This document shows positions 5,023 to 13,758 of a stretch of DNA of 13,758 nt, one piece after another. Every line of letters begins with the position of its first letter. Position 1 is the first letter of the stretch. The position numbers were made by a program, and so were the translations under genes. The DNA comes from Rubrobacter sp. (GTDB lineage: Bacteria > Actinomycetota > Rubrobacteria > Rubrobacterales > Rubrobacteraceae): assembly GCA_016781635.1 (NCBI GenBank), contig JADDPY010000516.1, forward strand, positions 1-13,758, given 5' to 3'. The notes below the pieces were generated by a model. That model was not told where the DNA came from. It did no database searches and was given only the letters and a program-made list of their open reading frames with translations.

Positions 5023-6260
5023 TTGGTTCTGGGCAAGAAAGCCTTCGACGTCGAAGAAGTACGTGAGCAGTTTCCGGCGCTCGGGCGGAGGTACAACGGC
5101 CGTCATGTCGCGTACTTCGACGGGCCGGGAGGCTCGCAGGTGGTGCGGGGGCGATCGAGGCGGTCGCGGGTTACATGACGCGCGGCGGGGCGAACTTGCA
5201 CGGCGCCTTCGTGACGAGCCGGGAGACGGAGGAGATCGTCGCCGGCGCCCGCCGCGCTTCGGGCGCGTTCCTCGGCGCCGACCCCGACGAAGTAGCCTTC
5301 GGCCACAACATGACCACCCTCACCCTCGCGGTCTCCCGCGCCCTCTCGAAGGGCTGGGACGAGAGCAGCGAGGTCGTGGTCACGGAGATCGACCACCGCG
5401 CCAACGTCGACCCGTGGGTCCTCGCCGCCACCGACAGGGGCGCCGCCGTCCGCTGGCTCCCCGTGGACGCCGCAACCCTCACCCTCGACCTCACAAACCT
5501 CGACGAGCTCATAAACGAGCGCACCAGACTCGTCGCCGTTAGTCTCGCCTCGAACGCCGTCGGCACCGTCAACGACGTAGCCAGAATCTCCGAACGCGCA
5601 CGCGAGGTCGGGGCAATCGTAGCGGTGGACGCCGTCCACGCCGCCGCGCACATACCCCTCGACCGCGACGCTCTGGGCGCCGACGTCCTGACCTGCTCGG
5701 CCTACAAGTTCTTCGGCCCGCACGTGGGAATAACGGCCATTCGGCGCGACGTCTTCGAAGCGATGGAGCCTTACAAGCTTGCCCCGGGCCCGGGCCGCAT
5801 CCCGGACAAGCTAGAAACCGGCACCCAGAACCATGAGGGCCTCGCCGGCGTGGAGGCGGCGATCTCCTTCGTCGCCACCCTCGGCAGCGGCGCGACCCTG
5901 CGTGAGAAGCTGGTGAGCGGGATGCAGGAGATCGAATCTTACGAGGCTGATCTGGCGAACTCCGCGCGCGTGAGGCTCCGGGAGATGTCCGGGGTAACCC
6001 TCTACGCCGCCCCGGACGGGGTACGCAAAACGCCGACGCTCGCGTTCCGGCTGGAGGGACGTAGCCCCGTGGAGGTCTGCGAGCACATGTCCGAGCGCGG
6101 CATCTTCGTCGCTGGCGGCGACTTCTACGCCACGACCCTCGCCGATAAGCTCGGGATCAACGAGACCGGCGGTTTCGTGCGCGCCGGTCTCGCCCCCTAC
6201 ACCACCGCCGAGGAGGTCGACGCCTTCCTCGCCGCCCTGGAGGGGCTGGCGGGCCGTTAG
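5023..6260 (+). pseudogene. Cysteine desulfurase-like class V aminotransferase, split by a -1 frameshift in a G run
   Basis: The first ~43 codons (from the TTG at 5023, after AGGGGGTG) encode the conserved N-terminus ending VAYFDGPGGSQVVR, then run out of frame to a stop at 5178. The rest continues one base back as GAIEAVAGYMTRGGANLHG and stays open to 6260. Joined, the protein is ~412 residues, normal for the 'cysteine desulfurase-like' (VC1184-type) branch of fold-type I PLP enzymes. Visible marks are the cofactor aspartate in VDAVHAAAH and the Schiff-base lysine in TCSAYKFFGPH (K178 counted from the ATG at 5175). GTQNHEGLAG is a signature of this branch. The break falls at five G (5147-5151), where six would keep the frame. 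There is no cysteine in the C-terminal GGDFYA loop where desulfurases carry their persulfide cysteine, so desulfurase activity is doubtful. An ATG at 5175 would give only a chain lacking the N-terminus. Confidence 0.82.
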
Positions 6261-6276: not shown

Positions 6277-7926
6277 TCAGCGCGCCGGTTCGGCCGTGCG
6301 TGCCGCATCCTCCGGCTCCGCGGCCCCCTCGTGTTCGAAGACTACCTCGCCCCCGATCATGGTCAGGGCGGGGGAGAGGGAGAGGAGAGCCTCCGGGGGC
6401 GTGGAGAGGATCGTGCCGTCCAGGACGACGAGGTCGGCGAGCTTTCCGGGCTCCAGGCTACCCTTGATCCCCTCCTCGAAGGAGGCGTAGGCGCCGTTGA
6501 GGGTGAAGGTCCTGATGGCGTGCAGGAGGCTCGTCCCCTGCACGCCGCCTACTACCGTGCCGGAGCTCGTCTCGCGGGTCACGGCGCAATAGATGCCCCG
6601 CATGGGGTTCGGGACGGTGACGGGGGCGTCGGAGCCCGAGGCGGCGGTTATGCCCTCCTCCGCGTAGCTCGCGAGGGGGAACATATGCTCGACGCGCTCG
6701 CCGTAGTTCTTTACGTATCCCTCGCCGAACTCGTAGAAGAAAGCCGGGTTTGGGATGGGGACGATGCCGAGGCTCTTTATCCTCCGCATCAGGTCTGGCG
6801 GGGCCATGCCGGCGTGCTCGATACGGTGGCGGTGGTCCTCGCGGGGTTGCTCGGCGAGGGCCTTCTCGATGCAGTTCGCGACCATCTCCACGGCCCGGTC
6901 GCCGATGGCGTGCGCCGTGATCTGGAAACCTTCACGGTGCGCAGATCCCAGTATCTCGTCTATCTCTCCCTGCGAGTAGTAGAGGATGCCGGAGTCGGTC
7001 GGGTCGCTGGTGTAGGGCTCGCGGGTGGCGCAGGTCGGGCCGGAGCTCGCGCCGTCCGTGAACACCTTGGCCGGCCCGATCCTGAACCTCTCGTCCCCCA
7101 TGCCCGTCATCACCCCGCCCCGAATAGCCCCCTCCACGAACTTCTCGGACTCGTTCAACGAGCAGACCATCGCATAGATGCGCACCTTCACCCGTCCGCT
7201 TCTCACGGACTGGTACATCGCCCGCATCTGAGAAGGACCGTAGCCGCCGGCCTCGTGGATGCTCGTGATCCCGAGCCGAACGAAGTCGTCGTTCGCCAGC
7301 CCCATAGCTTCGGCCATCTCCTCCGGCGAGTACGCCGCCTCCTGGAATGCCGTCATGTGCGCGGTTTCCTTGAGCAGACCGTTCGGCTCGCCGTTCTCGT
7401 CCCGTCCGATGCTCCCGCCCTCTGGGTCGGGGGTGTCGCGGGTGATGCCGAGGATCTCGAGCGCCCGCGAGTTCACGACCGAGATGTGCCCGCACGTGCG
7501 CCCGGCGAAGACGGGATGATCCTCGGAGACGCGGTCGAGCTCCCGGCGGGTCGGGTGGCGGCCCTCGGCGAGCTTGCCGTTGTTGTAGCCCCAGCCCCGG
7601 ACCCACTCTCCTTCGGGCGTCTCCGCCGCCCTTAGCGAGAGTTTCTCCAGGATCTCCCCGACGCTCCCGACGCCGTTCTTGCAGTCCACCCCGAGCTTGT
7701 TCGCACCGTACATGAGCATATGGAGGTGCGAGTCGATGAAGCCGGGGAGGAGGGAGCGGCCACGCAGGTCCACCACCCTCGTCCCGGGTCCGCGCAGGCG
7801 CAGAATCTCCTCCGTCGAGCCTACGGCCAGGATCCTGCCCCCGCCGATCGCGATTGCCTCCACGATGTCGTCGTTCGGATTGACCGTAACTACCTCTCCG
7901 CCAACGAACAGGTGATCCGCGACCAT
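6277..7926 (-). CDS. YtcJ-type amidohydrolase (metal-dependent hydrolase)
   Basis: The 549-residue product belongs to the amidohydrolase superfamily, YtcJ/N-substituted formamide deformylase-like branch (Amidohydro_3). It shows the N-terminal strand LFVGGEVVTV, the metal-binding PGFIDSHLHM (HLH at ~67-69), KVFTDGASSG (~287-296), TAHAIGDRA (His ~339), HRHRIEHAG (~365-373), the aspartate of ASGSDAPV (~433) and the terminal GKLADLVVLDG. These match the family's metal and catalytic positions. The start is the ATG at 7926, preceded closely by AGGGAGGA; an ATG at 7977 in the same frame lacks a ribosome site. It is the last gene of the row with psuG and psuK (76-base gap), so it may hydrolyse an amide or cyclic imide linked to nucleobase breakdown, but members of this branch are poorly assigned and the substrate is unknown. 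Its stop is only 16 bases from that of the convergent upstream gene. Confidence 0.87.
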   Translation of the reverse strand: MVADHLFVGGEVVTVNPNDDIVEAIAIGGGRILAVGSTEEILRLRGPGTRVVDLRGRSLLPGFIDSHLHMLMYGANKLGVDCKNGVGSVGEILEKLSLRAAETPEGEWVRGWGYNNGKLAEGRHPTRRELDRVSEDHPVFAGRTCGHISVVNSRALEILGITRDTPDPEGGSIGRDENGEPNGLLKETAHMTAFQEAAYSPEEMAEAMGLANDDFVRLGITSIHEAGGYGPSQMRAMYQSVRSGRVKVRIYAMVCSLNESEKFVEGAIRGGVMTGMGDERFRIGPAKVFTDGASSGPTCATREPYTSDPTDSGILYYSQGEIDEILGSAHREGFQITAHAIGDRAVEMVANCIEKALAEQPREDHRHRIEHAGMAPPDLMRRIKSLGIVPIPNPAFFYEFGEGYVKNYGERVEHMFPLASYAEEGITAASGSDAPVTVPNPMRGIYCAVTRETSSGTVVGGVQGTSLLHAIRTFTLNGAYASFEEGIKGSLEPGKLADLVVLDGTILSTPPEALLSLSPALTMIGGEVVFEHEGAAEPEDAARTAEPAR

Positions 7927-8002
7927 GCGTCCTCCCTTCGGGTGCACTTGCAACCCCTCGTCCTTGCCCTGCCCCATGCTACCCGCGGGACGAAAGCCCC
8001 GC

Positions 8003-8896
8003 TCAACCCGTCGGACGGCCGCCTACCCTTCCTACCACCCGTGCCGCAAGCTCCACCCCCCCACGCAAAGCCTCCTCCGGGCCCTCCCCCCGGAGCCAGG
8101 CCTTCAGAAACCCCGCGCACGCGGCGTCGCCCGCCCCCGTGGTATCTATCGCTCGCGCCGGAGAAGCAGGAAGACGAAACCGCTCGCCCCCGGTCTTCCC
8201 GTACATTGCACCCTCTGCTCCAAGCTTCAGAACGACTTCGCCGTAATAGTCGAGCAGGGCTTGGACGATCCGGTCCTCGTCCGGTGTCCCCGCGAGCAGG
8301 GTGCCTTCGTCGCGGTTGGGGAAGGCGAGGTCGACCCCGCGCGTCCACTCGAGAAACTCCTCCGATCCCAGAGCTTCGAGGAGCGTGGTGGAGGATGGGT
8401 CTACGGAGATCGTCATCCCATGCTCGCGCGCCAGGTCGAGAGCGGCGAAGGCGGTCTCCCTGCGGGTGCCGCCGGAGAAGAGGTAGCCCGAGAGGTGGAG
8501 GTGCCCGCCGGGGCCGAAGAGGTCCTCGGGTAGATCATCGGGGCACAGGTTCTCGCCAGCGCCCCGGTCCGTGATCAAAGTTCGCTCCCCATCCCCGTCC
8601 ACGAGCGCGACCACCTTTCCGGTGTCGAGCTCCCGATCCCTCGCCAGACGGACGACGACGCCATCATCCCCGAGCTCCTCGTCGAGCATCTTCCCCAGAG
8701 GATCGTCCCCGACGCGGGCGACGAAAGCCGTCTCGATGCCGAGGCGGGAGAGCCAGGACGCGGTGTTCGCCCCCGAGCCGCCGGGCTGGGCATGCACCGG
8801 GGCGAAGACATCGGTGCCGAAGGCGAGGGGGCCGCCGAACCGCGCGATCACGTCGTAGATCAAGTCCCCGACTACTACCACCCGGGGCGAGCTCAT
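8003..8896 (-). CDS. psuK: PfkB-family carbohydrate kinase, probable pseudouridine kinase
   Basis: The 297-residue product is a complete ribokinase/PfkB-fold sugar kinase: N-terminal VVVVGDLIYDV, the di-glycine motif HAQPGGSGANTA (~35-45) and the C-terminal signature DTTGAGDAACAGFL, whose D257 is the catalytic base. The ATP-side segment VVLKLGAEGAMY is also typical. The family phosphorylates many sugars and nucleosides. The pseudouridine assignment rests on the psuG gene just upstream (12-base gap, same strand), as in known psuK-psuG pairs; the kinase would turn pseudouridine into the 5'-phosphate that PsuG cleaves. The Shine-Dalgarno site before the ATG at 8896 is weak, so translation may be coupled to psuG. 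Confidence 0.85.
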   Translation of the reverse strand: MSSPRVVVVGDLIYDVIARFGGPLAFGTDVFAPVHAQPGGSGANTASWLSRLGIETAFVARVGDDPLGKMLDEELGDDGVVVRLARDRELDTGKVVALVDGDGERTLITDRGAGENLCPDDLPEDLFGPGGHLHLSGYLFSGGTRRETAFAALDLAREHGMTISVDPSSTTLLEALGSEEFLEWTRGVDLAFPNRDEGTLLAGTPDEDRIVQALLDYYGEVVLKLGAEGAMYGKTGGERFRLPASPARAIDTTGAGDAACAGFLKAWLRGEGPEEALRGGVELAARVVGRVGGRPTG

Positions 8897-8908
8897 CGAG
8901 CCCGGCCC

Positions 8909-9823
8909 CTATTCGCCTTCGAGCGCCGCCAGGGCAGCCGCTATGCGGGCGGCGAGGCGAGCGTTGTTCAAGATAATCCTCTTGTTGACCTCCAGGCTCT
9001 CCCCGCCGGTCTCCTCGCGGAACCGCGCGAGCAGAAACGGCGTGACATCCTTGCCCCGCACGCCATCGCGCCGGAGCCCCTCGAGCCCGGAGCGGAGCGC
9101 CTTCTTGTGTAGGGCCGGGTCGAGCTGCTGGCTCTCCGGAAGGGGATTCGCGATCACCATCCCACCCGTCTCCAGATCCCCCAGGGCCCGAACGGCGTGT
9201 GCGGCCTCACCCTCGCCTTCGACGGACCAGTCGAGCGGGCAACCGGAGTCCGTCAGGTAGAAGCCCGGGAACCGCAGGGTGCGAAATCCCGCCACCGGCA
9301 CGCCGAGCGTCTCCAGAAGCTCCAGCGTCGCCGGCACGTCGAGGATGGACTTCACCCCCGCCGAGACCACGGCTACCGGCGTCCGGGCGAGCTCGGCGAG
9401 GTCCGCCGAGACGTCCCACGAGTCGCGCGCGCCGCGATGTACCCCGCCGAGGCCCCCGGTAGCGAAGAGCCTCACGCCGGCCCGTGCGGCCAGGGACGCC
9501 GTCGCGGCGACCGTCGTTGCCCCATGGCTCCCTTTCGCCACCGCGAACGGCAGGTCGCGCGTCGAGAGCTTGAGAATATCGTCCTCGTTCGCCAGGAGCT
9601 CCAGGTCTCCCTCACCGAGGCCGACCTTGGGTATGCCCCCGATCACGCCGACCGTCGCGGGGACGGCGCCTTCCTCGCGGACGATGGCCTCGGCTTCGAG
9701 GGCGAGGGCGAGGTTGTCCGGTCGCGGCAGGCCGTGCGAGATCAGGGTGGACTCCAGCGCCACCACCGCTCCGTTACCCTCCAGCGCCTCCGCGACCTCG
9801 TCCCGAACCTCCAGGCCGCTCAA
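8909..9823 (-). CDS. psuG: Pseudouridine-5'-phosphate glycosidase
   Basis: The 304-residue product has near full-family length. It cleaves the C-glycosidic bond of pseudouridine 5'-phosphate to give uracil and ribose 5-phosphate, using a ring-opened Lys adduct and a divalent metal. Family landmarks are present: [11 protein letters not shown] (Glu24), [37 protein letters not shown], the metal-site region DVSADL (~137-142), [10 protein letters not shown] with the catalytic lysine K158, and [17 protein letters not shown] with the conserved asparagine N280. The start is TTG at 9823, with GGAG just upstream and the N-terminus at the expected distance from VALESTLI. It begins 7 bases after the stop of the small Sm-like gene, so the two are almost certainly co-transcribed. 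Confidence 0.94.
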
Positions 9824-9830
9824 CCCGCTC

Positions 9831-10106
9831 CTACCCCTGGGAGTTGCGGGCGATCTGGATTTTCACGCGCTCGACGCTCGACCAGGGCAGAAACTCGTAC
9901 CCGCCCGGGTCCCCGCTAGGGTCGCGGACGTCGAGCAGTATCCCCGCCGCATCTCTGTCGCAGACGTAGCCCGAGACGTCGGAACCGCTTCTGATGGTCA
10001 ACGAGACGAAGCCGCCGCGCTCGAACGCCTGCCCCATCTCCGGGCTTCCGGGACGTAACCCCTGCGACCCGCCCCTGGAGCTTTCCTTGAACGTCTCCCT
10101 GTCCAA
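9831..10106 (-). CDS. Small hypothetical protein with an Sm-like (LSm) pattern
   Basis: The 91-residue product has a polar N-terminal tail (1-30) followed by a compact beta-rich segment: [20 protein letters not shown], then AGILLDVRD, then [13 protein letters not shown]. The order hydrophobic strand, G-x-x-V-x-G-x-V, gap, G-I-x-L-x-V and F-x-P-W-x-x-V is what short Sm-fold proteins show, where such sequences form a five-strand barrel. This is a pattern match, not a family identification. The start is TTG at 10106, with GAGGAGAGG a few bases upstream. It is the first gene before psuG (7-base gap), so it would be expressed with the pseudouridine genes. If it binds RNA or nucleotides that link would make sense, but nothing proves it. 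Confidence 0.75.
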
Positions 10107-10202: not shown

Positions 10203-10246
10203 CCAGAACAGGCGCAGCCCGTTGCAGCGGGCTGCGCCTGTTCTGG
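10203..10246. repeat. Perfect inverted repeat, 19-bp arms and 6-base loop
   Basis: Arm 10203-10221 (CCAGAACAGGCGCAGCCCG) is the exact reverse complement of 10228-10246, with TTGCAG between. The stem is very stable and flawless. No T run follows on either strand, so it is not a standard intrinsic terminator. It lies 36 bases before the transposase-like start and ~96 bases upstream of the psu operon. It may be the subterminal hairpin of an insertion sequence, a terminator for the pxp-like operon arriving from the right, or a REP-like element. Confidence 0.85.
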
Positions 10247-10476: not shown

Positions 10477-10713
10477 CTACTCCAGCTCGACGAGGTCCTG
10501 CCCGGCACCCACGGGGTCTTCGTCCTCGATGAGAAACCTGGATACGGTGCCCGCTCCTTCGGCCTTGATCTCATGGAAAGACTTCATTACCTCGATAATC
10601 CCTATGGTGTCGCCGGAGGAGACCTCGTCGCCCTCGTTCACGAACGGGGCGCTCTCCGGGTCCGGGCGCCGGTAGAAGGTGCCCGGCATCGGGCTTTTTA
10701 TGGTTTCGGCCAT
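10477..10713 (-). CDS. Stand-alone biotinyl carrier protein (BCCP-type biotinyl/lipoyl domain)
   Basis: The 78-residue product is just the biotinyl domain of an AccB-type carrier. SPMPGTFYRRPDPESAPFV matches the AccB thumb region, followed by EGDEVSSGDTIGIIEVMKSFHEI with the biotinylation lysine K44 in an E-V-M-K context, and GTVSRFLIEDEDPVGAGQDLVELE to close the barrel. The residue after MK is Ser where Met or Leu is usual. The N-terminal linker of full-length AccB is absent. GAAGGAG lies 9 bases before the ATG at 10713, and the gene starts 21 bases after the LamB/YcsF gene, as the last of four. It would carry a carboxyl group between a biotin carboxylase and the carboxyltransferase-like proteins upstream. 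No biotin carboxylase gene is in the window. Confidence 0.9.
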   Translation of the reverse strand: MAETIKSPMPGTFYRRPDPESAPFVNEGDEVSSGDTIGIIEVMKSFHEIKAEGAGTVSRFLIEDEDPVGAGQDLVELE

Positions 10714-10734
10714 CTGTTTACGCTCCTTCAGAAA

Positions 10735-11508
10735 TCAAGAGATCTTCTGTTCGGCTCGCCCCACGCGGTGGATCTCGACGCCGTTCTGCTCGAGCTTCCG
10801 CACTATTGCTTCGGCCAGCCTCGCGGCGCCGGGGGTATCGCTGTGGACGCACACGGAGTCCGCTGCTATCTCTATGTCGTTGCCGTCCACGGTCCTCACC
10901 CTGCCCTCGGCGATGCCCCTGAGGACCCTCTCGGCGACCTCTTCCGGGTCCGCCTCCCCGGTGACCTTGCGGGTGAAGACGATCTGCCCCTCGTCGTTGT
11001 ACTCGCGGTCCGCGAAAAACTCGGTCACCACCGGCTGGTCCATCTCCCTCGCTACCCTGTAGGTCGCGGAGGAGCGCATGCAGTACAGGACGAGCCCCGG
11101 GTCGACCCTCTGGATCGTCTCGATCATGGCGCGCGAGAGTTTTTCGTCGCGTGCGGCGACCATGTAGAGGGAGGCGTGCGGCTTTACGTGCTGGACCTCC
11201 ATGCCGTGGAGCCGCGCGAACTCCCTCAACGCCCCGAGCTGGTAGAGTAGCTCGTCCTGGATCTCCTCCGGTGAAACGTTTAGCTCCCGGCGTCCGAAGC
11301 CGACGAGGTCCCGGTAGCCGTTGTGGACGCCCACGGCCACGCCGTGCTCCTTCGCGAGCGCCACGGTCTTGCGCATCGTGGTCGGGTCGCCCGCATGGAA
11401 GCCGCCCGCCACGTTCGCCGAGCTTATGTACCGCATAAGATCCTCGTCCGCTCCGAAGCTATACGGCCCGAAGCTCTCTCCCATGTCGCAATTGAAGTCT
11501 ATCCGCAT
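10735..11508 (-). CDS. pxpA: LamB/YcsF family protein, 5-oxoprolinase subunit A-like
   Basis: The 257-residue product is a full-length LamB/YcsF protein. It has DFNCDMGESFG at residues 4-14, SANVAGGFHAGDP (~30-42), VGVHNGYRDLVGFGRREL (~59-76), HVKPHASLYM (107-116), FADREY (165-170) and VHSDTPGA (221-228), the conserved polar and metal-like sites of the family. In Escherichia coli and Bacillus, PxpA works with PxpB and PxpC to open 5-oxoproline to glutamate using ATP. GGAGGAG lies 5 bases before the ATG at 11508. The gene sits between the pxpC-like gene (125-base gap) and the biotin carrier (21 bases). Because the partner genes here look biotin-linked, the substrate could be 5-oxoproline or another lactam or amide. 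Confidence 0.92.
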   Translation of the reverse strand: MRIDFNCDMGESFGPYSFGADEDLMRYISSANVAGGFHAGDPTTMRKTVALAKEHGVAVGVHNGYRDLVGFGRRELNVSPEEIQDELLYQLGALREFARLHGMEVQHVKPHASLYMVAARDEKLSRAMIETIQRVDPGLVLYCMRSSATYRVAREMDQPVVTEFFADREYNDEGQIVFTRKVTGEADPEEVAERVLRGIAEGRVRTVDGNDIEIAADSVCVHSDTPGAARLAEAIVRKLEQNGVEIHRVGRAEQKIS

Positions 11509-11633
11509 TACTTCTCCTCCTGGAGCAACAGTCGCCTGCTCGGTCCCCTAAACACGCACCGGCCGATCCCGACCGGTGAGAGGGATGGTTCTCCTGCCGG
11601 GGTTGCCGCCCGCTGGCCGTCCGAGAGCATCGC
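11509..11633. other. Intergenic gap in the pxp-like operon with an inverted repeat
   Basis: CACCGG-N10-CCGGTG at 11557-11578 forms a 6-bp stem with a 10-base spacer; inner bases add little. On the minus strand it is followed by CGTGTTTA, too short a T run for a convincing terminator. It might act as an attenuator, an RNA-processing site or an operator. No promoter with both boxes is visible, so transcription probably reads through. Confidence 0.3.
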
Positions 11634-12608
11634 TTATAGCAAGGCCTGCCGGATCTCCGCCATCTGCCGGCGCCTCGCCTCGCGGGCCTCCAGAGCCTCG
11701 GCGAGCTCCACGCGGCGAAACCGGGTCTTGTCGTTCGTCTTCGTCTGGGCGAGCGCGTCGCGGTCGACGCTTATGACGGTCCCGATGGTCGCGTAGCCGC
11801 CGCCGGTGACCGCGTCGTTCACGAGGACGATGGGCTCGACCCCGCCCGGGACCTGGATGGAGCCCACGGGGTAGCCGAAGTCCACCACGTTCGCGGGATC
11901 CGCCCCCGCGCCCGCCGGCTGCTCCCTCTCGACGAACCCGAGCTCGCCGCCCTTGTAACGGTAGCCGACCCGGTCCGCGTCCGGCGTCACCGTCCACGTG
12001 GTGCCCAGGAACGTCCGCATGCTCTCCTCCGTGAGACGATAGCTCGCCAGCCCGATAATGACCCTCAGCTCCGTCTCGTCGGAGAAGGTCGGGATCTGCT
12101 CCCGCGCTACCGCCATCCCGACCCGGACGGAGCGGTCGCCGGCCTCGCCGATCTTCAGATGGTCGCCCTCCTTGAGCGCGCGTCCCTCGTGGCCGCCCAG
12201 GCCTATGAGGGTGTACGTCGAGCGGCTGTGGATAAAGATGGGCACGTCTATTCCGCCGGCCACCGCGAGGTAGGATCTAGCGCCGTTTCTGAGGTAGTCG
12301 AACGAGAGGACGTCGCCCTCTTCCACCCAGAGAGCCTCCCAGGTCGGAACTTCTTCGCCGTTTATCTTCGGCGGCAGATCCGCGCCGGTTATGGCGATGA
12401 CCGCGCCCTCGGTGAACTCGAGCTCCGGGCCGAAGTAGGTGATCTCCAGCCCCGCCGCCCCGTCCTCGTTGCCGACGAGGTAGTTCCCGATTTGGTAGGA
12501 GAAGACGTCCATCGCCCCGGAGGGCGGCATCCCGATGTCGTACTCGCCGAAGCGGCCGGTATCCTGAACGGTAGTGAGGAGGCCCGGCTTCCTGACCTTA
12601 ATCGCCAT
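11634..12608 (-). CDS. pxpC: Biotin-dependent carboxyltransferase family protein (KipA/PxpC/AHS2)
   Basis: The 324-residue product has the AHS2 (allophanate hydrolase subunit 2, CT_A_B) pattern: LLTTVQDTGRFGEYDIGMPPSGAMD (10-34), LVGNEDGAAGLEITYFGPELEF (44-65), YLAVAGGIDVP (113-123) and VLVNDAVTGGGYATIGTVISVDRDALAQ (261-288). Length is normal. In E. coli the homologue PxpC pairs with PxpB for ATP-dependent activation of 5-oxoproline; in urea carboxylase the same fold forms half of the carboxyltransferase. The ATG at 12608 lies inside the 3' end of the upstream gene (11-base overlap), so the two are translated together and likely form one complex. The gene symbol follows the family name and does not assert oxoprolinase activity. 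Confidence 0.9.
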   Translation of the reverse strand: MAIKVRKPGLLTTVQDTGRFGEYDIGMPPSGAMDVFSYQIGNYLVGNEDGAAGLEITYFGPELEFTEGAVIAITGADLPPKINGEEVPTWEALWVEEGDVLSFDYLRNGARSYLAVAGGIDVPIFIHSRSTYTLIGLGGHEGRALKEGDHLKIGEAGDRSVRVGMAVAREQIPTFSDETELRVIIGLASYRLTEESMRTFLGTTWTVTPDADRVGYRYKGGELGFVEREQPAGAGADPANVVDFGYPVGSIQVPGGVEPIVLVNDAVTGGGYATIGTVISVDRDALAQTKTNDKTRFRRVELAEALEAREARRRQMAEIRQALL

Positions 12609-13503
12609 ACAGCACCCCCAGGATCTCTTTGTTGTACCCGTGCGGGTCGTCGAGCGAGCGGTCGGGGCGGAAGGTGAACGGGCGGGTGCGGTACCGGAAA
12701 GAGCCGTCCTGGACCCGGCCCCGGATCTCGTCGAACTCCTCCCGCTCTATGCCGCGGTAGTTGAAGATGTCGCCGGGCTTGGGGAAGACTATCGAGTGCT
12801 CGAAGTCGGGGAGCCTCTGTTCGACGTCGAGGACGGGGGCGGGGGCGAGGCCGTAGAGCTGGTAACCGCCCGCCCCCTGCACCGAGTAGATCACCGCGAA
12901 CCCGCCGCCGAATCCGAAGGCCCTTTCCGGGGTGTAGGTGCGCGGCCTCACGTACTTCGGGACCTCGACCTGCTCCTCGGGCGGGACGAGCTGGTAGCAC
13001 CACGGCAGCCCCGGCACGAACCCGATCATGGTCACGAGCCACGGCGAGCCCAGGAGCGCGGCAACGAAGTCCTCCGTCGAGGAATAGCCGTTGATGCGCG
13101 CCGAGTACTCGAGGTCGGTCGCCTCCGGGTCCTGGTGGCGGTCGCGGAAGCGCATCAGGGCCTCATGGGTCCATGGATCGCTCATCATCACGGGGACGTC
13201 CACGACGCGCGTCTCGAGCTCGAAGCCCTCGATGTCGCCGACCTCCTCGTCTATCTCCTTGAGACGCCCTATAAGCTTGTCCGGATGCAAGACATCCGGG
13301 TCGAGGCGGACCATGTACGAGGCGTTGGACGGGCAGATGTCCATGATGCCGGGGATGTTCTCTTCCTTGAGCTTGTTCGTGATCGCCATCGCCCGGAAGT
13401 TGACGCCCAGGCTCATCGCCTCGGCAAGCTCCACGAAGACGAACTCATCCCCGCCGTAGGTGTACCGTGCCTGAGGCAACCCGGTCTCCACGCCTCCACT
13501 CAT
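12598..13503 (-). CDS. KipI/AHS1-type carboxyltransferase subunit, urea-carboxylase-like
   Basis: The 301-residue product is an AHS1 (allophanate hydrolase subunit 1) protein, longer than the usual 215-240 residues of PxpB/KipI. It shows ARYTYGGDEFVFVELAE (12-28), YSARINGYSSTEDF (133-146), PWLVTMIGFVPGLPW (154-168), KYVRPRTYTPERAFGFGGG (183-201), AVIYSVQGAGGYQLYG (203-218) and a C-terminal extension with FPKPGDIFNYRGIEREEFDEIRGR (240-263). The RINGxxSxxD, KYxxxRTxTPExAxGxGG and GxGGYQxxG elements and the D-x-F/I-x-Y-x-x-I-type tail are those of the carboxyltransferase part of urea carboxylase, not of the short PxpB, which ends soon after its GGWQxxG motif. GFVPGLPW is shared with PxpB. First gene of a four-gene operon; AAGGGGAA precedes the ATG at 13503 and it overlaps the next gene by 11 bases. 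Confidence 0.88.
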   Translation of the reverse strand: MSGGVETGLPQARYTYGGDEFVFVELAEAMSLGVNFRAMAITNKLKEENIPGIMDICPSNASYMVRLDPDVLHPDKLIGRLKEIDEEVGDIEGFELETRVVDVPVMMSDPWTHEALMRFRDRHQDPEATDLEYSARINGYSSTEDFVAALLGSPWLVTMIGFVPGLPWCYQLVPPEEQVEVPKYVRPRTYTPERAFGFGGGFAVIYSVQGAGGYQLYGLAPAPVLDVEQRLPDFEHSIVFPKPGDIFNYRGIEREEFDEIRGRVQDGSFRYRTRPFTFRPDRSLDDPHGYNKEILGVLYGD

Positions 13504-13539
13504 ATTTCCCCTTTACCGTCGCCCCGTGTAGCGCCCGGA

Positions 13540-13568
13540 ATACTACAAGCGCCGAAAAACACGGTCAA
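13540..13568 (-). promoter_or_regulatory. Sigma70-type promoter of the pxp-like/biotin operon
   Basis: On the minus strand TTGACC (13568-13563) and TAGTAT (13545-13540) are separated by exactly 17 bases. Transcription would begin near 13533, giving a leader of about 30 bases with the Shine-Dalgarno site and then the ATG at 13503. This is the best promoter in the window. Housekeeping-type boxes without an obvious operator suggest basal expression. Confidence 0.65.
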
Positions 13569-13758
13569 CGAACTGCTCGCCCGCGTCTGAGGCACCCCCT
13601 CGCCGAATCCCATGCTGCCAACGCTGGTGCGCCGCACCGTGAGATCTACGGCTCGAAAGGCACTCGCGAAGCCAGAAGATGCTTCACCTCGGCGCTTTGG
13701 TCCGCGTCGACCCTCTACTTGGCGACAGGAGGGGTGCTTTCGTACTTCGTCTCGCGCC
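13569..13758. other. Window-edge region, possible 3' end of a minus-strand gene
   Basis: No complete gene is visible. On the minus strand one frame enters from the window edge and reads RETKYESTPPVAK before TAG at 13717-13715, which could be the C-terminus of a gene lying beyond the window; 44 bases are too few to tell. Small inverted repeats occur: GGTGC-GCC-GCACC (13626-13638) and GAAGC-N8-GCTTC (13668-13685). They could terminate that upstream gene before the promoter at 13540-13568. Plus-strand frames starting near 13680 run off the end with no support. Confidence 0.25.

Follow-up and report, generated by a model that had tools for sequence, protein, structure and literature searches.

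Gene content and layout of the locus

We analyzed a 13,758-nt stretch of DNA (hereafter, the window), which is the whole of contig C13 (JADDPY010000516.1) of a Rubrobacter sp. metagenome-assembled genome (MAG; GCA_016781635.1; 707 contigs, 77.7% complete). Its minus strand carries an operon of four genes that encode two carboxyltransferase-type subunits, a LamB/YcsF hydrolase and a biotin carrier. The AHS1-type subunit is of a long form (301 aa; 12598-13503; Pfam CT_C_D, 110.3 bits), and its gene overlaps by 11 nt (12598-12608) with that of the AHS2-type subunit (324 aa; 11634-12608; CT_A_B, 298.1 bits). A 125-nt spacer separates AHS2 from the LamB/YcsF (PxpA-like) hydrolase (257 aa; 10735-11508; LamB_YcsF, 311.3 bits), a protein with solved relatives. 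The biotin carboxyl carrier protein (BCCP; 78 aa; 10477-10713; Biotin_lipoyl, 65.2 bits) follows after 21 nt and contains the motif EVMKSF. The Pfam matches confirmed the four open reading frames and families proposed in a first-pass annotation of this DNA. The overlap agrees with its claim that AHS2 is coupled to AHS1, and the AHS1 motifs it quoted (RINGYSSTEDF, GAGGYQLYG) are present in the translation.

The LamB/YcsF protein passed the cut-off of the PxpA subfamily model NF003814 (322.1 bits; cut-off 226), and the carrier passed that of NF005457 (117.4 bits; cut-off 87). The Met-Lys of the biotin carrier was retained in all 21 aligned carriers, that of the window included. Two matches to the BPL_LplA_LipB family were found in the MAG, which may therefore encode a ligase of this family. 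The order AHS1-AHS2-LamB-BCCP recurred in those related Rubrobacteraceae loci whose sequence extends to this point; the carrier, whose absence from relatives had been named beforehand as grounds for rejecting the proposed system, was present at the same locus in them. A strong hairpin lies 3' of the carrier gene (10203-10246, no strand assigned; 22-nt arms, 95% complementary; −44.5 kcal/mol, z −5.84), so the operon probably stops there. An AlphaFold model built from 9 closely similar rows had a mean predicted local distance difference test (pLDDT) score of 42.6.

AHS1 and AHS2 belong to a third clade

Family models favored urea carboxylase for both subunits, AHS2 only slightly. For AHS1, the score was 104.7 bits with TIGR02712 (urea carboxylase) and 56.2 bits with TIGR00370 (PxpB; cut-off 145.55). 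AHS2 scored 242.4 bits against TIGR02712 and 207.7 bits against the PxpC model NF045499 (cut-off 500). None of these cut-offs was reached, that of TIGR02712 (1303.85) being set for the whole protein. In single-sequence comparison with the fetched loci, window AHS1 scored 67-116 bits against urea carboxylases and 17-58 bits against PxpB types. The same comparison did not discriminate for AHS2 (urea carboxylases, 109-179 bits; PxpB-type loci, 87-182 bits). Insertions at about residues 110-128 and 228-246 are common to the long AHS1/AHS2 proteins and urea carboxylase, and PxpB/PxpC are without them.

The first-pass annotation had proposed a tree to check that AHS1 falls outside PxpB, and this was the outcome. 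A tree of 56 AHS1 rows resolved PxpB-type proteins (9 rows; support 100/96), urea carboxylases (13 rows; 100/99) and a third clade (34 rows; 100/98) that holds the window protein together with other sequences, 15 in all from Rubrobacteraceae, 8 from haloarchaea, 9 from Alpha- and Betaproteobacteria and 2 from other actinobacteria. Placement within either PxpB or urea carboxylase was thus rejected for AHS1. The AHS2 tree gave the same groups, with 34 rows in the third clade, 13 in urea carboxylase and 12 in Pxp (100/99, 100/99 and 100/98, respectively). Three short PxpB-type rows (L059, L061, L064) were left out of the AHS1 tree, and L062 is in neither tree. Because the trees are unrooted, they are silent on which other group is nearer to the third clade.

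The eight haloarchaeal long AHS1 genes (L071-L073, L107, L109-L112) all lie on megaplasmids or secondary replicons. They group with those of Rubrobacteraceae (91/86), which suggests that long AHS1 may have been transferred between domains.

A lysine occupies the proposed general-base position

In the urea amidolyase of Kluyveromyces lactis, Lys1605 is reported as the most likely general base of the carboxyltransferase, and the K1605A variant was severely inhibited (PMC5770610). A phmmer alignment placed Lys183 of AHS1 opposite this residue. Across 125 rows, this position was Lys in 39/39 of the long clade and 18/19 urea carboxylases, and Arg in 67/67 PxpB-type rows. The long rows comprise 38 distinct sequences (L053 and L070 are identical), and 20 of the 22 Rubrobacteraceae loci are represented, since L058 and L100, in which AHS1 is truncated, contributed none. 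The PxpB-type rows come from 65 actinobacterial loci, E. coli and one Falsirhodobacter plasmid.

A biotin carboxylase very probably lies past the contig end

The window stops 255 nt upstream of AHS1 (13504-13758, no strand assigned). In most relatives, a ~445-aa biotin carboxylase (BC; Pfam Biotin_carb_N, CPSase_L_D2, Biotin_carb_C) is divergently encoded right at this place. We observed the BC adjoining AHS1 in 16 Rubrobacteraceae genomes, 11 of which have the biotin transporter gene BioY between the two. The MAG contains five Biotin_carb_C matches. One of them is on contig C505, which begins within a BC with 73% identity to the locus BC of relatives; the other four BCs showed 46-61%. After this BC on C505 lie a major facilitator superfamily (MFS) transporter and two short-chain dehydrogenase/reductase (SDR) genes, and the same BC-MFS-SDR-SDR order stands beside AHS1 on the Rubrobacter marinus chromosome (L042; identities 78, 90 and 73%). 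A further genome of the genus (G009) has this order on a contig that starts 205 nt before the BC, with ~2.3 kb extra between BC and MFS (C218). At the R. marinus locus (6673-10059), the matches to BC, AHS1 and AHS2 are each broken into two or three overlapping segments, probably reflecting sequencing indels or decay.

The model NF006367 assigns the BC to the AccC type. At 14 positions that we take to be those of the AccC active site, the C505 BC and all 18 locus BCs were identical at 13; H236 varies.

The presence of the two genes was linked across 36 Rubrobacteraceae genomes (G000-G035). Long AHS1 occurred together with a locus-type BC in 18 of them, the other 18 had neither, and no genome had just one of the two (Fisher P = 2e-10, which overstates the evidence because adjacent genes are inherited together). 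A locus-type BC was defined by at least 71% identity; every other BC among the matches listed had at most 59%. Two of the 18 positive genomes are partial: in G001, only a fragment of AHS1 is present, at the end of a contig, and the BC of G002 is in three pieces (68-80%). Setting these two aside left 16 genomes with both and 18 with neither. Among the 22 genomes that are at least 90% complete and at most 5% contaminated, 12 had both and 10 had neither. R. taiwanensis (L050) has its locus-type BC on a different contig (L175). Two genomes carry two long AHS1 matches each: G014 (L047, L048) and G325 (contigs C170, C199).

These data suggest that a dedicated BC very probably lies just past the contig end in this genome. 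The first-pass annotation had described the operon as having no BC; this was a contig-edge effect, since the window is a whole contig that ends so close to AHS1. A BC-less carboxylase was rejected on the layout in relatives, the C505 synteny and the AHS1/BC co-occurrence.

The gene set recurs across taxa

A gene was counted as near at any distance within the fetched sequence; in L072, for example, LamB is 6.6 kb away. Around the 39 long-AHS1 rows, AHS2 was present in 39, LamB in 36, the carrier in 35 and the BC in 34. The BC was missing from the window and from L043, where the contigs end, from L050 (other contig) and from the haloarchaeal loci L072 and L110. The carrier was missing from L046, L052 and L084, whose contigs end, and from L111. 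LamB was absent from L110, and contig ends left it missing in L084 and partial in L046. All nine proteobacterial loci have a divergent LysR followed by LamB-carrier-BC-AHS1-AHS2; gene order varies in haloarchaea. The 19 long loci from outside Rubrobacter are a non-random sample: 17 were picked from the plasmid-collection matches listed, and the other two are all that a 396-genome survey of the phylum gave outside the family. In an evenly stepped plasmid sample (60 of 487 matching records), 11 had at least 45% identity to AHS1, and the next had 29.8%. The dissected gene set proposed as a distinct system does recur, and it is not peculiar to this genome: it is also found in Actinomycetota, Proteobacteria and haloarchaea.

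Neighboring genes weakly point to cyclic amides

Of the 15 Rubrobacteraceae genomes with enough fetched sequence past BCCP, 13 have a molybdopterin-dependent large subunit there. Its best scores were to CO-dehydrogenase and glyceraldehyde-dehydrogenase models, under their cut-offs. For G033, only the first 105 residues are in reach (54% identity). An amidase in G017 and a BioY-like gene in G001 stand between BCCP and this subunit. The subunit does not follow BCCP in G019 or in this MAG, where the nearest homologue is on another contig (C16; 59-66%). It also lies ~2.3 kb from the BC on the R. taiwanensis contig L175, and three-subunit versions stand behind transporter genes in Diaphorobacter and Sulfitobacter.

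Other lineages gave different neighbors. The Phyllobacterium locus has an annotated allantoin permease (no Pfam match at 1e-5), and a gene table for Pectobacterium places an allantoin permease beside the same annotated genes (PMC10991766). TorT-like and ABC transporter genes were found at four loci, a class III aminotransferase with an amidase in three haloarchaea, succinate-semialdehyde dehydrogenase (SSADH) with carbonic anhydrase in Rhizobium, and HyuA/HyuB in Methylobacterium. Together, these weak clues favor an N-heterocycle, cyclic ureide or lactam and do not support a single substrate.

Proposed mechanism and alternative explanations

Because of the AHS1 and AHS2 trees, the catalytic lysine, the biotinyl-lysine motif and the recurring gene set, we think it reasonably probable that four subunits of a five-subunit, dissected urea-carboxylase-like system are encoded here, and that this system N-carboxylates an amide ahead of hydrolysis by LamB/YcsF. 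The coupling of such an enzyme to LamB/YcsF had already been proposed for this operon and is supported; the lack of its own BC, part of the same proposal, is not. The subunits would act as a complex. The divergently encoded BC predicted past the contig end would carboxylate the carrier biotin with ATP and bicarbonate. AHS1 and AHS2 would form the carboxyltransferase and move the carboxyl group to an amide nitrogen, with Lys183 in the general-base role suggested for K. lactis Lys1605. LamB/YcsF would then hydrolyze the N-carboxy amide, and the resulting carbamate would lose CO2. As substrate, a cyclic amide (a lactam or cyclic ureide) is the most likely candidate.

Several observations weigh against this interpretation. 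In single-sequence comparison with PDB chains, AHS1 scored slightly higher against 9YX5 ("allophanate hydrolase subunit 1"; 55.2 bits) than against the urea carboxylase 3VA7 (50.0 bits), and AHS2 scored slightly higher against YbgK (153.4 bits) than against urea carboxylase (144.6 bits). One urea carboxylase (L091) has Arg at the general-base position, the other 18 having Lys. Arg is also found at eight PxpB-type loci that have both BC and carrier within the fetched sequence (L094-L098, L114-L116), and two further PxpB-type loci (L061, L064) have a BC. Two haloarchaeal loci and that of R. taiwanensis (L072, L110, L050) are without an adjacent BC. BC adjacency in this MAG is deduced from synteny. 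In G001, of the same genus, the BC is near the start of a contig (C351) and the C505 neighbors are not within 12 kb; nor were these neighbors found at the other Rubrobacteraceae loci searched (1e-30).

Biotin chemistry cannot be read strictly from Lys at this position, because the eight BC- and carrier-containing PxpB-type loci and one urea carboxylase have Arg. With these exceptions, the Lys/Arg split may provide a sequence rule for carboxyltransferase chemistry. We rejected BC adjacency alone as proof of such chemistry, given the same eight loci. They belong to one actinobacterial family (f20) and represent a second kind of biotin-linked arrangement.

The best-surviving alternative, which we regard as unlikely, is a biotin-dependent 5-oxoprolinase. 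The same five parts would N-carboxylate 5-oxoproline, in place of the phosphorylation assumed for PxpB and PxpC (PMC13274462). The LamB protein passes the PxpA subfamily cut-off (NF003814). Moreover, AHS1 matches in the 36 Rubrobacteraceae genomes were all of the long type (at least 72% identity) and none of the PxpB type, so the long type could be their 5-oxoprolinase. However, neighboring genes indicate other cyclic amides, and 28 of 41 Rubrobacteraceae genomes searched, this one included, have proteins of the Hydantoinase_B family, to which other oxoprolinases belong.

An ordinary phosphorylating lactamase of the PxpABC type, to which carrier and BC are mere neighbors, would agree with the PxpA-like hydrolase, with the PxpB/PxpC-type chains that score highest in the PDB comparison and with the Arg of the eight PxpB-type loci just described. 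It is improbable given that both carboxyltransferase subunits fall outside the Pxp groups, that Lys and Arg divide long from PxpB-type rows completely (39/39 and 67/67), and that these genes are repeatedly accompanied by BC and carrier in Actinomycetota, Proteobacteria and haloarchaea.

If the dissected enzyme were a urea carboxylase that uses urea itself, this would account for the lysine and the insertions of urea carboxylase type, but AHS1 sits in a separate clade. All three plasmid urea carboxylase loci examined have UAAP1/UAAP2, and two of the three have allophanate hydrolase and two of the three a urea ABC transporter. None of these was annotated in the annotated long-type loci examined, where the partner is LamB/YcsF, and we consider urea very unlikely.

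We give still less credence to carboxylation of carbon rather than nitrogen by a C-carboxylase with an associated hydrolase. Most of the biotin carboxylases treated in PMC3199775 act on acyl-CoA or pyruvate carbon and the BC is of the AccC type, but the carboxyltransferase is of the urea carboxylase superfamily, not the CoA or pyruvate type, and LamB/YcsF comes from an amide-opening family. Least credible is a system served by the BC of the cell's acetyl-CoA carboxylase, as first proposed: the window shows no BC and that of R. taiwanensis is on another contig, but a distinct BC accompanies long AHS1 in 18/18 genomes and occurs in 0/18 without it, and the C505 synteny speaks for a BC at the locus.

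Other features of the window

Tandem PsuG-like (Indigoidine_A) and PfkB-family genes at 8003-9823 possibly serve pseudouridine breakdown. We rejected a functional link between them and the operon: they had no matches in the relatives' loci searched, and the strong hairpin lies between. Two overlapping plus-strand open reading frames (871-1350 and 1347-1784) appear by eye to be two halves of one thioredoxin-reductase-like flavoprotein. At 5175-6260 lies a cysteine-desulfurase-like protein (TIGR01976, 379.4 bits; cut-off 352.35).

Discussion

The gene set shares BC, both carboxyltransferase halves, carrier, general-base lysine and insertions in AHS1 and AHS2 with urea carboxylase (TIGR02712; K. 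lactis urea amidolyase, PDB 3VA7 and 5I8I). Unlike that single-chain enzyme, it consists of separate genes in a separate clade, has LamB/YcsF as partner instead of allophanate hydrolase, and has neighbors that are not for urea uptake. With the 5-oxoprolinase PxpABC (E. coli ybgL/ybgJ/ybgK, now pxpA/pxpB/pxpC), it shares LamB/YcsF and separate AHS1 and AHS2, but it has an extra carrier and BC, a long AHS1 with Lys and not Arg, and AHS1 and AHS2 scores far under the PxpB and PxpC cut-offs. The BC and carrier are homologous to E. coli AccC and AccB, with the 13 of 14 identical BC positions noted above, whereas the carboxyltransferase comes from a different superfamily; the database name acetyl-CoA carboxylase is doubtful for this reason.

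A BC beside pxp genes is already in print as annotation. A six-gene operon with pxpB, pxpC, pxpA, accB and accC has been reported as a regulatory target in Staphylococcus aureus (PMC11315280), and extra accBC and pxpBC in Lactiplantibacillus pentosus were read as separate functions (PMC12427679). The S. aureus operon and the eight PxpB-type actinobacterial loci resemble the present set in having AHS1, AHS2, carrier and BC together; those eight loci differ in having a PxpB-type AHS1 with Arg. The proposed ATP-driven opening of a cyclic amide also resembles that by caprolactamase CapAB and ATP-dependent hydantoinases (PMC8453981), which are unrelated proteins with no biotin carrier. For lactam activation in caprolactamase, a carboxylated intermediate is among the mechanisms discussed there. 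In a 2011 family review, the substrates of biotin-dependent carboxylases are acyl-CoAs, pyruvate and urea, and split AHS1/AHS2 genes are noted with no functional data (PMC3199775). In the open-licence PMC papers searched, we found no functional study of this gene set, nor any mention of its separate clade, of the division between Lys and Arg or of a carboxylase function. The set is best read as a taxonomically wide, dissected variant of a urea-carboxylase-like enzyme.

One clade of split AHS1/AHS2 proteins is now tied to a dedicated BC and carrier, with the lysine proposed for urea carboxylase. We tentatively extend this to a broader proposal, in which biotin-borne N-carboxylation coupled to LamB/YcsF would open cyclic amides and, in several lineages, a molybdenum hydroxylase would convert an N-heterocycle or cyclic imine to the lactam. 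Databases label these genes acetyl-CoA carboxylase and 5-oxoprolinase, and both labels are in doubt for them. If our proposal is true, these names hide an activity of biotin enzymes beyond those in the 2011 list (PMC3199775), present in Actinomycetota, Proteobacteria and haloarchaea. The question narrows to one defined five-protein set, which would give microbes another ATP-spending route to the opening of stable cyclic amides.

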